The translations under genes and the position numbers were made by a program. Below, piece by piece: positions 1,155-5,493 of a DNA stretch of 64,000 nucleotides. This DNA comes from an uncultured Bacteroidales bacterium (GTDB lineage: Bacteria > Bacteroidota > Bacteroidia > Bacteroidales > Muribaculaceae). Location of the stretch: the NCBI GenBank assembly GCA_946412245.1, contig CAMKGM010000007.1, positions 1-64,000 on the forward strand. Reading direction: 5' to 3'. Below the pieces are notes generated by a model. That model did no database searches. It was given only the letters and a program-made list of their open reading frames with translations, and was not told the origin of the DNA. Each line of letters starts with the position of its first letter. Within the stretch, counting starts at the first letter, position 1.

Positions 1155-2768
1155 TTACAAAGGAATATTACCGTGCTTCTTGGCGGGATTGACATACTTC
1201 TTGGTGCGCAATTGCTCAAGGGCGCGAATCACGCGGAAGCGGGTGTTGCGAGGTTCAATCACATCATCAATGTAGCCATACTTGGCTGCATTGAATGGAG
1301 TGCAGAACAGGTCATTGTATTCTTGTTCTTTCTCTTCGATGAACTTCTTGTTCTCTTCCATGATTTCTTTGGCCTTTGCCTCGTCACCGGCTTCTTTAGC
1401 CTCGGCTGCGGCTGCCTTAGCGGCCTTCATTTCCTTGGCATAGAGAATGCCTGCGGCACCTGCGGCACCCATCACGGCAATCTCAGCGCTGGGCCATGCG
1501 TAGTTCATATCACCACGCAGCTGCTTGCAGCTCATCACGATGTGGCTACCACCATAGCTCTTGCGCAGGGTAACGGTAACCTTGGGCACTGTAGCTTCGC
1601 CGTAGGCGTAGAGCAACTTGGCACCGTTCAAAATCACAGCATTGTACTCTTGTCCGGTACCCGGCAAGAATCCGGGAACGTCAACGAGGGTTACCAAAGG
1701 AATGTTGAATGCGTCGCAGAAGCGAACAAAGCGACCGCCTTTCTTCGAGGCGTTCACATCAAGCACGCCTGCCATGTGCTGCGGCTGGTTGGCTACGATG
1801 CCCACCGACTGGCCGTTGAAGCGAGCAAAGCCCACGATGATGTTCTTGGCAAAGTCTTTATGAACTTCAAGGAATTCACCGTTGTCAACGATTGCGCCTA
1901 TCACATCATACATATTATAAGGATCGTTAGGACTCTCGGGAATGATGTTGTTGAGAGCGTCTTCCATGCGGTCAATCGGGTCATTGCATTCAATGCACGG
2001 TGCAGGTTCCATATTGTTGCTGGGCATGTAGCTCAACAATCTCTTGATGGTTTCAATCACCTCTTCTTCAGTGTCGCATGCAAAGTGCGTCACACCACTC
2101 TTCTGAGCGTGAACGGTTGCACCGCCCAGTTGTTCCTGAGTCACGACCTCGCCCAGCACTGTCTTTACCACAGCGGGACCGGTAAGGAACATGAACGATG
2201 TACCCTTTGCCATCAGCGTGAAGTCAGTCAGGGCAGGGGAGTACACTGCACCACCGGCACAGGGACCGAGGATTGCTGAAATCTGAGGAACGACACCACT
2301 GGCATCAATGTTGCGCTGGAATATCTCAGCATAGCCGGCCAGTGCGTTAATACCCTCGGGTATGCGGGCACCGCCTGAGTCGTTAAGACCAATCACGGGT
2401 GCTCCCTGTTTCATGGCAAGATCCATTACCTTACACATCTTCATGGCCATGGCTTCGCCCAGAGATCCGCCTATCACGGTGAAGTCTTGTGCAAACACAT
2501 AGACCAAGCGGCCGTTAACTGTGCCGTAACCGGTTACAACACCATCGCCCGGGTAGGATTTCTTCTCCTGGCCAAAGTTGGTGCAACGATGACGGACAAA
2601 CATGTCCAGTTCTTCAAAGCTTCCTTCGTCAAGGAGCATATTGATGCGTTCACGAGCTGTGTATTTGCCTTTCTCGTGCTGTTTCACGATGGCTTTCTCG
2701 CCACCACCAAGACGTGCTTCGGCGCGTTTCGTAATCAGTTCTTGGATTTTTTCGAGTTGTTTACCCAT
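1155..2768 (-). CDS. mmdA: Acyl-CoA carboxyltransferase subunit (methylmalonyl-CoA decarboxylase alpha / propionyl-CoA carboxylase beta)
   Basis: 537 residues, the usual length of the family. Both crotonase-like halves are present: the N-terminal half has GSLGEAMAMKMCKVMDLA and LNDSGGARIPEG, the C-terminal half has DVPGFLPGTGQEYN and the GGSHIVMSCKQL region, which form the acyl-CoA and biotin pockets. The enzyme transfers CO2 between (S)-methylmalonyl-CoA and carrier biotin in the cytoplasm. Only 9 bases separate it from the epimerase gene upstream, and an OadG-like subunit and biotin carrier follow, which favours the Na+-pumping decarboxylase direction (succinate to propionate) over propionyl-CoA carboxylation. 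An alanine/lysine-rich insert near residues 455-500 is usual in this family. Confidence 0.93.
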   Translation of the reverse strand: MGKQLEKIQELITKRAEARLGGGEKAIVKQHEKGKYTARERINMLLDEGSFEELDMFVRHRCTNFGQEKKSYPGDGVVTGYGTVNGRLVYVFAQDFTVIGGSLGEAMAMKMCKVMDLAMKQGAPVIGLNDSGGARIPEGINALAGYAEIFQRNIDASGVVPQISAILGPCAGGAVYSPALTDFTLMAKGTSFMFLTGPAVVKTVLGEVVTQEQLGGATVHAQKSGVTHFACDTEEEVIETIKRLLSYMPSNNMEPAPCIECNDPIDRMEDALNNIIPESPNDPYNMYDVIGAIVDNGEFLEVHKDFAKNIIVGFARFNGQSVGIVANQPQHMAGVLDVNASKKGGRFVRFCDAFNIPLVTLVDVPGFLPGTGQEYNAVILNGAKLLYAYGEATVPKVTVTLRKSYGGSHIVMSCKQLRGDMNYAWPSAEIAVMGAAGAAGILYAKEMKAAKAAAAEAKEAGDEAKAKEIMEENKKFIEEKEQEYNDLFCTPFNAAKYGYIDDVIEPRNTRFRVIRALEQLRTKKYVNPAKKHGNIPL

Positions 2769-2777
2769 TACTCTATA

Positions 2778-3197
2778 TTATTTGTTAGGATTTTCACAGA
2801 GTTCTACAAGTGCACCACAAGTGGTCTTCGGGTGCAGGAAGGCAATGTTCAAGCCCTCAGCGCCACGGCGAGGCTCTTTGTCTACCACGCGACCACCTTT
2901 TTCTTGAACCTCGGCAAGGGCGTTCGCTACACCATCCTCAACTGCAAAGGCAATGTGCTGAATGCCGCCACGGCCACCATTCTTCTCAATGAATTTGGCG
3001 ATGGCACTCTCGGGACTTGTTGCTTCAAGCAACTCAATCTTTGTTTGACCCACCTGGAAGAAGGCGGTCTTAACGTGCTGATCTTCTACTTCTTCGATTG
3101 CGAAGCATTTGAAACCAAGTAAATTCTCATAAAAAGGGATAGCTTCTTCAAGAGAAGTAACTGCTATTCCAACATGTTCAATGTGTGAAATTTGCAT
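2778..3197 (-). CDS. mce: Methylmalonyl-CoA epimerase
   Basis: 139 residues, a vicinal-oxygen-chelate (glyoxalase) fold protein. Metal ligands expected of the family are visible: His in ISHIEHVGIAV near the N-terminus, His in GGIQHIAFAVED near residue 90, and Glu in LVELCENP at the C-terminus. It interconverts (R)- and (S)-methylmalonyl-CoA, linking methylmalonyl-CoA mutase to the decarboxylase encoded just downstream. It is the first gene of the minus-strand operon mce-mmdA-oadG-biotin carrier. A TAnnTTTG box lies at 3295-3302, giving a leader of about 90 nt that contains an inverted repeat (3258-3280). Confidence 0.93.
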   Translation of the reverse strand: MQISHIEHVGIAVTSLEEAIPFYENLLGFKCFAIEEVEDQHVKTAFFQVGQTKIELLEATSPESAIAKFIEKNGGRGGIQHIAFAVEDGVANALAEVQEKGGRVVDKEPRRGAEGLNIAFLHPKTTCGALVELCENPNK

Positions 3198-3257
3198 AAT
3201 GAGTTTTGTTTAAAATGTTGTTATTTAAATAATTGTAGTGTGTTGATCTTGATTTGC

Positions 3258-3280
3258 ATACGCGCGTCACGTGCGCGTAT
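3258..3280. promoter_or_regulatory. GC-rich inverted repeat in the mce leader
   Basis: ATACGCGC (3258-3265) and GCGCGTAT (3273-3280) form perfect 8-base arms around a 7-base centre that itself contains CACGTG overlap. It stands in AT-rich sequence just downstream of the predicted mce transcription start (box at 3295-3302). It may be an operator for the propionate operon or an RNA hairpin; no T-run follows it, so it is not a simple terminator. Confidence 0.45.
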
Positions 3281-3294
3281 CCTTAATTTTTGTG

Positions 3295-3302
3295 CAAAGT
3301 TA
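3295..3302 (-). promoter_or_regulatory. Bacteroidota -7 box for the mce operon
   Basis: On the minus strand the sequence reads TAACTTTG, an exact TAnnTTTG match, about 98 bases upstream of the mce ATG. No clear TTTG -33 element is seen at the expected distance. Confidence 0.6.
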
Positions 3303-3430
3303 ATAAAAATAATTCACTGTAACCATAGGTTTTATCGCTTCTTGCGCTAATCTTTTCTAAAATTACATTAATAAGTGCAAAATTACCCGCTTCTTTTCCC
3401 GGAATGGCATTTGATAGCTTTTACGAGGAC

Positions 3431-3454
3431 TGACAGAGTGGCAGAGTCGTGTCA
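3431..3454 (+). promoter_or_regulatory. Possible activator site upstream of dnaK
   Basis: TGACA (3431-3435) and TGTCA (3450-3454) are inverted copies of each other, with a near copy TGGCA at 3439-3443 between them. The cluster lies about 25 bases upstream of the sigma-54-like element and so could bind an enhancer-binding protein or a heat-shock regulator. This is inferred from symmetry and position only. Confidence 0.4.
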
Positions 3455-3477
3455 TGTTATCTGACCTTACTTTTTTT

Positions 3478-3493
3478 TGGCACAAGCTTTGCT
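3478..3493 (+). promoter_or_regulatory. Sigma-54 type -24/-12 promoter for dnaK
   Basis: TGGCAC (3478-3483), five bases, then TTGCT (3489-3493) match the RpoN consensus TGGCAC-N5-TTGCW exactly, including the invariant GG and GC doublets ten bases apart. Transcription would begin near 3503-3505, about 48 bases before the dnaK ATG. No TAnnTTTG box is present between 3400 and 3553, so this is the best promoter candidate for dnaK. Confidence 0.65.
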
Positions 3494-3552
3494 ATTACAT
3501 GGGTGACATTATTGTCGAAAAAACAGAAAACAAATCTAAAAACTTTTATATT

Positions 3553-5493
3553 ATGGCTAAAATTATTGGAATTGATCTGGGAACCACTAACTCTTGTGTG
3601 TCGGTTCTTGAAGGTAAAAATCCGGTTGTAATACCGAATAGTGAAGGACGTAACACTACTCCTTCGGTAGTGGCTTTTGTTGATGGCGGTGAGCGCAAAG
3701 TGGGTGACCCTGCTAAACGTCAGGCTATTACTAACCCTACTCGCACCGTCTATTCTATCAAGCGATTCATGGGCGAGACTTTCGACCATGTGGGCAAGGA
3801 AGTGGAACGTATGCCTTATAAGGTAATCAACAACGGCAACAATCAGCCCCGTGTTGAAATTGACGGACGTCAGTACACTCCGCAGGAAATCTCAGCGATG
3901 GTGCTTCAAAAAATGAAGAAAACGGCCGAAGATTATCTGGGACAGACGGTGACCGACGCTGTCATTACAGTTCCTGCTTACTTTAATGACTCGCAACGTA
4001 AGGCCACGAAAGAGGCCGGCGAAATTGCAGGTCTCAACGTGCAACGCATCGTTAACGAGCCTACTGCAGCTGCACTCGCTTATGGCCTCGATAAGAGTGC
4101 CGACGATAAGAATATCGCCGTGTTCGACCTTGGCGGCGGCACTTTTGATATTTCTATCCTTAACCTCGGTGATGGCGTCTTTGAAGTGAAATCGACCAAT
4201 GGTGACACCCACCTGGGTGGCGATGACTTTGACCAGCGCATCATCAACTGGCTTGCTGAGGAATTCCAAAATGAAGAGGGTATTGACCTGCGCAAGGATC
4301 CTATGGCACTCCAGCGACTCAAAGAAGCGGCCGAGAAAGCTAAGATTGAACTTTCAAGCTCCATGAGCACTGAAATCAATCTGCCTTACATCATGCCCGT
4401 TAACGGCATTCCCAAACACTTGGTGAAGACCCTGACCCGTGCCAAATTTGAGCAACTTTGTGATGACCTGATTCAGAGCACCATCGAACCCTGCCGCAAG
4501 GCTTTGAACGATGCTGGTCTGTCAACAAGCGACATTGACGATGTGATTCTCGTGGGCGGTTCTACACGTATTCCTGCAGTTCAGGAAATTGTACAGAAAT
4601 TCTTCGGTAAGGCTCCCTCTAAGGGCGTGAACCCCGACGAGGTTGTGGCTGTGGGTGCCGCTATTCAAGGCGGTGTGCTCAGCGGAGATGTGAAGGATGT
4701 GCTGCTTCTCGACGTAGTGCCCCTGTCAGTCGGTATTGAGACCCTCGGTGGCGTGATGACCAAACTCATTGATGCTAACACCACAATTCCTATCCGCAAG
4801 AGTCAGGTCTTCTCTACGGCTGTTGATAACCAACCTTCAGTTGAAATCCACGTGCTTCAGGGCGAGCGTCCCATGGCTAAGGATTGCAAGACCCTCGGCA
4901 AGTTCCATCTCGATGGCATCACACCGGCACCCCGTGGCGTGCCACAGATTGAGGTCTCTTTCGAAGTTGATGCTAACGGCATCATGAATGTCAAGGCTGT
5001 TGACAAGGCTACCGGCAAGGAGCAAAGCATCCGCATCGAGTCTTCGAGCGGTCTTAGCGATGCTGAGATTCAGCGCATGAAGGACGAGGCTGCTGCCAAT
5101 GCCGCTGCCGACCAAAAGGAGAAGGAACGCATTGATAAGATTAATCAGGCCGATGCCATGATTTTCCAAACCGAGAAGAGCCTTAAGGATCTGGGCGACA
5201 AACTGCCCGCCGACAAGAAGGCTACCATCGAGGAGTCGCTCAATAAGCTGAAAGAAGCTCACAAGAATCAAGACATTGCAGCCATCGATACTGCTATGAA
5301 CGAACTCAATGAACGCTTCCATGCCATCTCGCAGGAGATGTATGGTCAAGCTGGCGGTGCACAACCTGGAGCAGGTGGTCCACAACCCGGTGCCGGCGGT
5401 TTCCAGGGCGGCAACCCCTTCCAGCAAGGTGGCAATAACGGTCAGCAAGGCAACAGTGGCTCAGCCGAAGACGTTCCTTACGAAGAAGTATAA
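3553..5493 (+). CDS. dnaK: Chaperone DnaK (Hsp70)
   Basis: 646 residues from the ATG at 3553; an in-frame upstream extension to 3454 overlaps the promoter and lacks homology-like sequence, so I reject it. The ATPase domain opens [19 protein letters not shown], and contains the phosphate loops [10 protein letters not shown] and [13 protein letters not shown]. The linker [13 protein letters not shown] leads to the peptide-binding domain, then a helical lid and a Gly/Gln-rich tail ending EDVPYEEV, which is the standard DnaK C-terminus. It refolds and protects cytoplasmic proteins with DnaJ and GrpE, neither of which is adjacent. It appears monocistronic, with a strong terminator at 5551-5585. 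Confidence 0.98.

Follow-up and report, generated by a model that had tools for sequence, protein, structure and literature searches.

The dnaK gene in the 64-kb stretch of DNA analysed here (the window) is very probably controlled by σ54 instead of the usual heat-shock regulators, as its upstream sequence and that of its relatives suggest. Taken as a whole, a reading in which σ54 transcribes dnaK, a single enhancer-binding protein (EBP) acts on TGNCA sites and other chaperone genes share the same regulon appears highly probable. An earlier note on this DNA had proposed that dnaK is under σ54, and the proposal is supported by the motif, its conservation, the presence of rpoN and of an EBP, and the same element at other chaperone genes. 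The note had also suggested a different stress circuit. This goes too far: such control does not depart from what is normal in the bacterium's own class, and it has already been mapped in Flavobacterium.

The putative promoter, TGGCACAAGCTTTGCT, lies on the + strand at 3478-3493. Both direct reading and a script resolve it into a −24 element TGGCAC (3478-3483), a spacer AAGCT (3484-3488) and a −12 element TTGCT (3489-3493), with the −24 GG and the −12 GC at canonical spacing, so that the match to the RpoN −24/−12 pattern claimed in the earlier note is borne out; conservation of TGGCA-N6-TTG among relatives also supports it. The σ54 consensus is quoted as TGGCACN5-7TTGCT in the accessible text of PMC12316311. 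The promoter ends (3493) 59 bases before the dnaK ATG, a distance which had rightly been called suitable. When the C of 3492 is taken as −12, transcription is predicted to start 12 nt further on, near 3504 on the + strand, leaving a leader of about 49 nt. The gene itself (3553-5493, + strand) encodes a DnaK (Hsp70) of 646 aa (PF00012, E 4.8e-266), whose Hsp70 domain spans residues 4-597 by Pfam. Its start was set at 3553 because alignments with most relatives begin at residue 1 of the protein, and a longer mechanical ORF from 3454 was set aside in favour of this start. Divergent from dnaK, on the − strand at 1155-3197, are two genes identified by Pfam: one of 139 aa for a glyoxalase-superfamily protein and one of 537 aa for a carboxyl transferase, as in propionyl-CoA metabolism.

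To follow the element among relatives, 130 dnaK loci were collected: the best 80 of 583 public loci, the best 30 of 197 Bacteroidia genomes (the window's own genome included) and 20 chosen genomes in which dnaK is divergent, or rpoN is missing, or HrcA is present. The dnaK start could be located in 127 distinct upstream regions; L072, L102 and L217 were dropped, the last of which has TGGCA-N6-TTG 48 bp before the start with one TGNCA. Within 220 bp upstream of dnaK, TGGCA-N6-TTG was present in 107/127 of this sample with its best 80 of 583 public loci, while 100 dinucleotide shuffles of the same regions averaged 0.68 and never exceeded 3. Control searches returned 2/127 on the opposite strand and 0 with the pattern reversed. 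By source, the pattern was found in 69/78 named loci (from the best 80 of 583), 25/30 best of the class and 13/19 chosen. TGNCA sites accompany it: at least one lay within 120 bp upstream in 103 of the 107 and at least two in 99, and the motif together with two TGNCA sites occurred in 0.06 of 127 in shuffles. Four of the 107 exact matches had no TGNCA within 120 bp, among them L214, whose match may be due to chance. The base following TTG was A in 53, T in 31, C in 21 and G in 2 of the 107; A or T thus stands there in 84/107 dnaK upstream regions (L052-L161, L214-L233). To judge by these sequences, Bacteroidota have before dnaK a −12 element that seems relaxed from the canonical GC, a point that weighs against the σ54 reading.

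Twenty upstream regions had no exact promoter. In five of them (L219, L226, L227, L231 and L233) dnaK lies downstream of hsp20, with one more gene between the two in L226 and L227, and all five hsp20 genes have an exact TGGCA-N6-TTG upstream and at least one TGNCA nearby. The remaining 15 have a one-mismatch site, for example TGGCACAATCTTCG or TGGCATGGTCTGTG, which in L091, L134 and L139 ties with another. One mismatch as the best score was observed in 16/127 against 11.8 in shuffles, which is weak by itself. Two to five TGNCA sites were found upstream of most one-mismatch sites, with one in L080 and none in L082. Because of their likeness among relatives and these upstream TGNCA sites, most of the one-mismatch sites look persuasive as putative promoters.

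The note had pointed to TGACA and TGTCA arms and a near copy upstream of the promoter. They were located at 3431-3435 (TGACA), 3450-3454 (TGTCA) and 3439-3443 (TGGCA), that is 42, 23 and 34 bp before the −24 TGGCA, and are proposed here, without a strand being assigned, as candidate EBP sites. The sites at 3431-3435 and 3439-3443 make up one TGNCA-N3-TGNCA pair, which also came up among the matches in the genome, and since TGNCA is its own reverse complement such a pair is a palindrome. One more TGGCA, at 3405-3409 and thus 68 bp ahead of the −24 TGGCA, may be there by chance; the script also returned a TGACA at 3504-3508. In the dnaK upstream regions of relatives, TGNCA was found at 4.4 per region (the −24 box included) versus 1.0 in shuffles. 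The gap between two TGNCA sites was most often 3 bases (58 pairs), followed by 6, 7 and 8 bases (17, 25 and 13 pairs), while each such gap gave 0.2-0.4 pairs in shuffles. Within 110 bp upstream, an N3 pair was present in 52/107 and an N6-8 pair in 48/107. Measured from the −24 TGGCA, the sites peak at about 12, 20, 30-32, 42-44, 62-65, 73-76 and 83-86 bp. This phasing was strongest at a period of 10.55 bp (R 0.52; 320 sites in 102 sequences). At a period of 10.7 the observed R was 0.51, versus at most 0.21 in 2000 random per-sequence shifts, and a reduced set of 88 sequences gave R 0.48 versus a null maximum of 0.24. By this phasing, most TGNCA sites of relatives share one DNA face and keep step with the promoter. 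In the window, the site at 42 bp coincides with a peak, and the other two (34 and 23 bp) fall at peak edges. Enhancers of σ54-dependent promoters usually lie at −80 to −150, and the TGNCA array sits closer. In a full-text search, outside which lie most subscription journals and all supplements, no published description of the array was found.

The genome that contains the window was scanned for rpoN and for σ54 activators. One copy of rpoN is present (contig C71, 483 aa), with AID, CBD and DBD domains, and there is one recognisable EBP. PF00158 gave one strong match (229 bits) and four at 20-39 bits; the four weak ones were rejected as EBPs because the matched stretches fit AAA_2 (three) or AAA_3 (one) better. 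A search with the EBP itself at E ≤ 1e-30 likewise returned a single match in this genome, as in G101 and G176. σ54 cannot open promoters without an AAA+ enhancer-binding protein, so that this sole EBP would serve every σ54-dependent promoter here, if the draft holds all of them. The assembly is a draft of 138 contigs with an estimated 98.3% completeness and 3.8% contamination; being incomplete, it could be missing a second EBP. In the class, rpoN was detected in 193/197 Bacteroidia genomes. The four in which it was undetected (G016, G027, G034 and G110) all retain a relative of the EBP, which suggests that these may be assembly gaps. Of these, G027 keeps the full dnaK element, G034 keeps the element before hsp20, in G016 TGGCA-N6-TTG is accompanied by a single TGNCA, and G110 has a TGGCA-N6-TTG match without TGNCA that is possibly due to chance. 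Four of 197 genomes, all keeping the EBP relative, offered no clean natural contrast, and their use as such was abandoned.

The EBP is a protein of 424 aa with a Sigma54_activat domain at residues 17-183, a lid at 189-264, a variable stretch and a Fis-type helix-turn-helix (HTH) at 379-420. Pfam gave no receiver or other N-terminal sensor domain, and the sequence contains the GAFTGA loop. A relative at E ≤ 1e-30 was present in 197/197 Bacteroidia genomes, 195 of them with E below 1e-90; G052 and G087 gave a much weaker best match (E about 1e-65 and 1e-67), and the true counterpart may be missing there. Identity was about 47-59% over nearly the whole length among the matches listed, with one partial match at 64%. 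When 30 EBPs were aligned, the AAA+ domain and the HTH were conserved while residues 261-375 (about 115) were variable, the mean share identical to the own residue being 0.69, 0.57 and 0.18 respectively. The gene lies between an acyltransferase gene and lptE (LptE by Pfam in the own genome), and in 26/30 EBP loci an ORF of 144-182 aa follows within about 300 bases downstream, many of these ORFs having lipoprotein-like starts as judged by eye. In the own genome (contig C46), a TGACA-N3-TGACA palindrome at L002:451-463 stands before the acyltransferase-EBP-lptE genes. No TGGCA-N6-TTG was found upstream in this locus, and from its sequence autoregulation of the EBP without σ54 may be possible. 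This idea is weakened, since a TGNCA pair was found within 1.5 kb upstream in just 5/30 EBP loci, the own one included; the sole TGGCA-N6-TTG upstream among the 30 belongs to a sixth locus, L182. An lptE-linked EBP as activator of chaperone genes is unpublished so far as the full-text search, which left most subscription journals and all supplements outside, could show.

The promoter may be σ54-dependent while a different regulator, for example an OmpR-type response regulator like RprY, uses the TGNCA sites and the EBP acts from elsewhere or without specific DNA contact. Regulators of the OmpR type bind to repeats spaced by 10-11 bp, and TGNCA gaps of 6-8 are common (55 pairs), which would suit repeats of that type. 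According to the accessible text of PMC3646045, EMSA in P. gingivalis showed RprY bound to the promoters of groES, clpB and dnaK, which it seems to repress; the htpG promoter was not bound. Many Bacteroidetes σ54 activators are described in the accessible part of PMC3372290 as having no DNA-binding domain, which would suit a rival regulator at these sites; the own EBP, unlike them, has such a domain. Against RprY, a gap of 3 is the commonest (58 pairs), and such a palindrome would suit a dimer with a Fis-type HTH; moreover, the single EBP has an HTH that is well preserved across the 30 relatives. An OmpR-type owner of the sites seems unlikely, and binding of the EBP to them is preferred.

HrcA/CIRCE governs dnaK and groE in many bacteria. 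Here, hrcA was not found in the own genome, CIRCE gave 0 matches in the 64-kb window at up to 3 mismatches, and HrcA was found in 2/197 Bacteroidia genomes, both of one genus; HrcA/CIRCE control of dnaK was rejected because both hrcA and CIRCE are absent, in which the present system differs from that type. By the same pattern, CIRCE is absent from six further loci inspected. In the sole HrcA bearers, G034 and G069 (genus g39), a single gene separates dnaK from an hsp20 upstream of it. Their hsp20 retains the σ54 element, G034 is also without detected rpoN, and the genus was discarded as a contrast. For σ32, 0/197 Bacteroidia genomes exceeded the curated RpoH cut-off, a model that is proteobacterial only, while 2/14 control genomes did. 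Weaker RpoH matches occurred in 196/197 and are expected from the σ70 family; all being below the cut-off, σ32 control was rejected.

A housekeeping-sigma promoter could give most dnaK transcription, with a contribution from the σ54 site only in certain conditions. DnaK is constantly required, whereas σ54-dependent promoters are silent without an active EBP, and this favours a housekeeping promoter. In B. thetaiotaomicron, moreover, most start motifs have the −7 box TAnnTTTG (81% of primary starts, in the accessible text of PMC7366714). As the earlier note had stated, however, no TAnnTTTG was present on the + strand at 3200-3553, where three matches lie on the − strand, and a housekeeping promoter before dnaK was rejected on this ground. 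Among relatives, TAnnTTTG was found within 220 bp in 10/127, versus 26 on the opposite strand, and after the −12 box in 0/107. It is thus quite improbable that a housekeeping promoter carries the main dnaK transcription, and σ54 is retained as its likely source.

The bare motif TTGGCA-N6-TTGC is not specific, occurring exactly 52 times in the 3.17-Mb genome, and 30 of the 50 distinct sites examined (two overlapping on contig C32 were left out) lie inside a stop-free stretch of at least 250 codons. The dnaK site is itself one of them, since the reading frame of the gene is still open ahead of its start. The case therefore rests on conservation and on TGNCA context. A chance match before dnaK, which the 52 exact occurrences might suggest, is hardly credible in view of the 107/127 relatives against 0.68 in shuffles and the mapped dnaK start of F. 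psychrophilum (accessible text of PMC9723704). The 50 sites were then ranked by the number of TGNCA within 110 bp, disregarding the genes. The top-ranked sites were those of dnaK (4), grpE (4), an ORF at a contig end (4), clpB (3) and one lying within an open frame (3), and the hsp20 site had 2. At least two TGNCA were found at 10/50 sites, which cover dnaK, grpE, clpB and hsp20; none of the other 40 sites was recognised, by eye from downstream ORFs, as standing before genes of these kinds (4/10 versus 0/40, p about 0.0009, computed by hand).

The note had proposed to look for the same element before groES and clpB, and it was found before both, in a variant form at groES, and also before hsp20, lon and grpE, the last of which is followed by dnaJ. 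At groES, TTGGCACGAATTATGC (ATGC in place of TTGC) stands about 55 bases before the ATG with TGNCA sites upstream. Divergent from groES, lon is preceded on the opposite strand by TGGCATTTTATTTG, whose TGGCA has its T 43 bases from the lon ATG, with five TGNCA matches upstream in the region shared with groES. This intergenic region (L212:1283-1498, contig C14 of the own genome) contains TGNCA sites and a σ54-like site each way, and from its sequence might possibly be a two-way σ54 control region. Elsewhere in the own genome, a secA-like gene has the σ54-like site TTGGCACTAAGTTTGC, together with one TGNCA, 64 bases ahead of it (L201, contig C57), and four TGNCA with TTGGCACGCAAATTGC lie before a secreted-looking ORF cut off at the end of contig C60 (L203). 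The 51 aa present of this ORF (at least 51 aa) had no Pfam match, and it is a candidate for an unknown member of the regulon. With elements at each of them, dnaK, grpE-dnaJ, groES, lon, clpB and hsp20 would constitute one protein-quality-control regulon, their co-regulation being deduced from the shared elements.

σ54 control of dnaK as such is not new, since Flavobacterium starts have been mapped (accessible text of PMC9723704). In that study of F. psychrophilum, mapping of transcription starts and de novo motif search gave SM4, a −24/−12 motif; its starts at groES-groEL, lon, dnaK, grpE-dnaJ and htpG fell in one co-expression cluster and that at clpB in another. The likeness to the own genome lies in −24/−12 promoters before dnaK, groES, grpE-dnaJ, lon and clpB; there, though, the starts are mapped whereas those of the own genome are predicted, and in the accessible text of PMC9723704 a TGNCA array is undescribed for SM4 and hsp20 is absent from the table. 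The same source names three PF00158 proteins as possible activators and leaves the choice open, assigns a different promoter type (SM5) to a σ54-dependent regulator gene that has lptE next after it, and reports mutagenesis on a gliding-motility operon. A PSSM survey (accessible text of PMC12316311) found GroEL, IbpA, GroES, GrpE, DnaJ and DnaK to be enriched in σ54-dependent promoters in Bacteroidota and Planctomycetota, and proteases too in Bacteroidota. These are the same chaperone groups as the element-bearing genes of the own genome, but the survey gives orthologous-group statistics, with no enhancer site or activator assigned in the accessible text. It states that grpE and groES of B. thetaiotaomicron are σ54-dependent, the source given (reference 80) being the Blattabacterium genome paper. 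As far as their accessible texts go, papers on B. thetaiotaomicron starts and expression leave a σ54 motif unnamed (PMC7366714, PMC10994844), and PMC12596196 and PMC3162934 have nothing on σ54 and Bacteroides chaperones. A 2013 study of P. gingivalis mentions that no CIRCE turned up when its heat-shock promoters were analysed and that other mechanisms of control are assumed (PMC3646045, accessible text). What would be new here, judging from the sequences, is a TGNCA array in phase with the −24 box (period about 10.5 bp) and its proposed assignment to the sensor-less, lptE-linked EBP.

In the preferred reading, RNA polymerase with σ54 would transcribe dnaK from 3478-3493, starting near 3504; the sensor-less EBP encoded beside lptE would most likely bind the TGNCA sites at 3431-3454; and dnaK, grpE-dnaJ, groES, lon, clpB and hsp20 would be co-regulated through their common elements, as is in part published for Flavobacterium. 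The σ32 (RpoH) regulon has a similar gene list (dnaK, groESL, grpE, clpB, lon and hsp20), but the own system, unlike it, has another promoter type and an ATP-driven activator. PspF is an EBP without a sensor domain, consisting of AAA+ plus HTH only. The own EBP is PspF-like in being AAA+ plus HTH, and differs in being encoded beside lptE and in its stretch of about 115 variable residues between lid and HTH. Because it has no sensor domain, the likeliest routes by which heat or misfolding might act on it would be control of its own amount or inhibition by free chaperone.

Tentatively, and with more doubt than confidence, this may be extended to the whole class: the lptE-linked sensor-less EBP would be the master heat-shock activator, replacing σ32 and HrcA/CIRCE. 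It would dock on a promoter-proximal, one-face TGNCA array running in 10-11 bp steps to the −24 box, itself a TGNCA, instead of on a distant looping enhancer; it would be governed by free chaperone or by how much of it is present, and would tie the LPS-export operon to cytoplasmic quality control. In the literature found, as far as the accessible texts of PMC3646045 and PMC9723704 go, heat-shock control in Bacteroidota has so far been without a named activator. A genome with a single EBP and a conserved, phased candidate operator narrows the question to one protein and one DNA site. If σ54 control holds, chaperone induction in these bacteria would be ATP-dependent and gated by an activator, as opposed to resting on sigma-factor competition or derepression.
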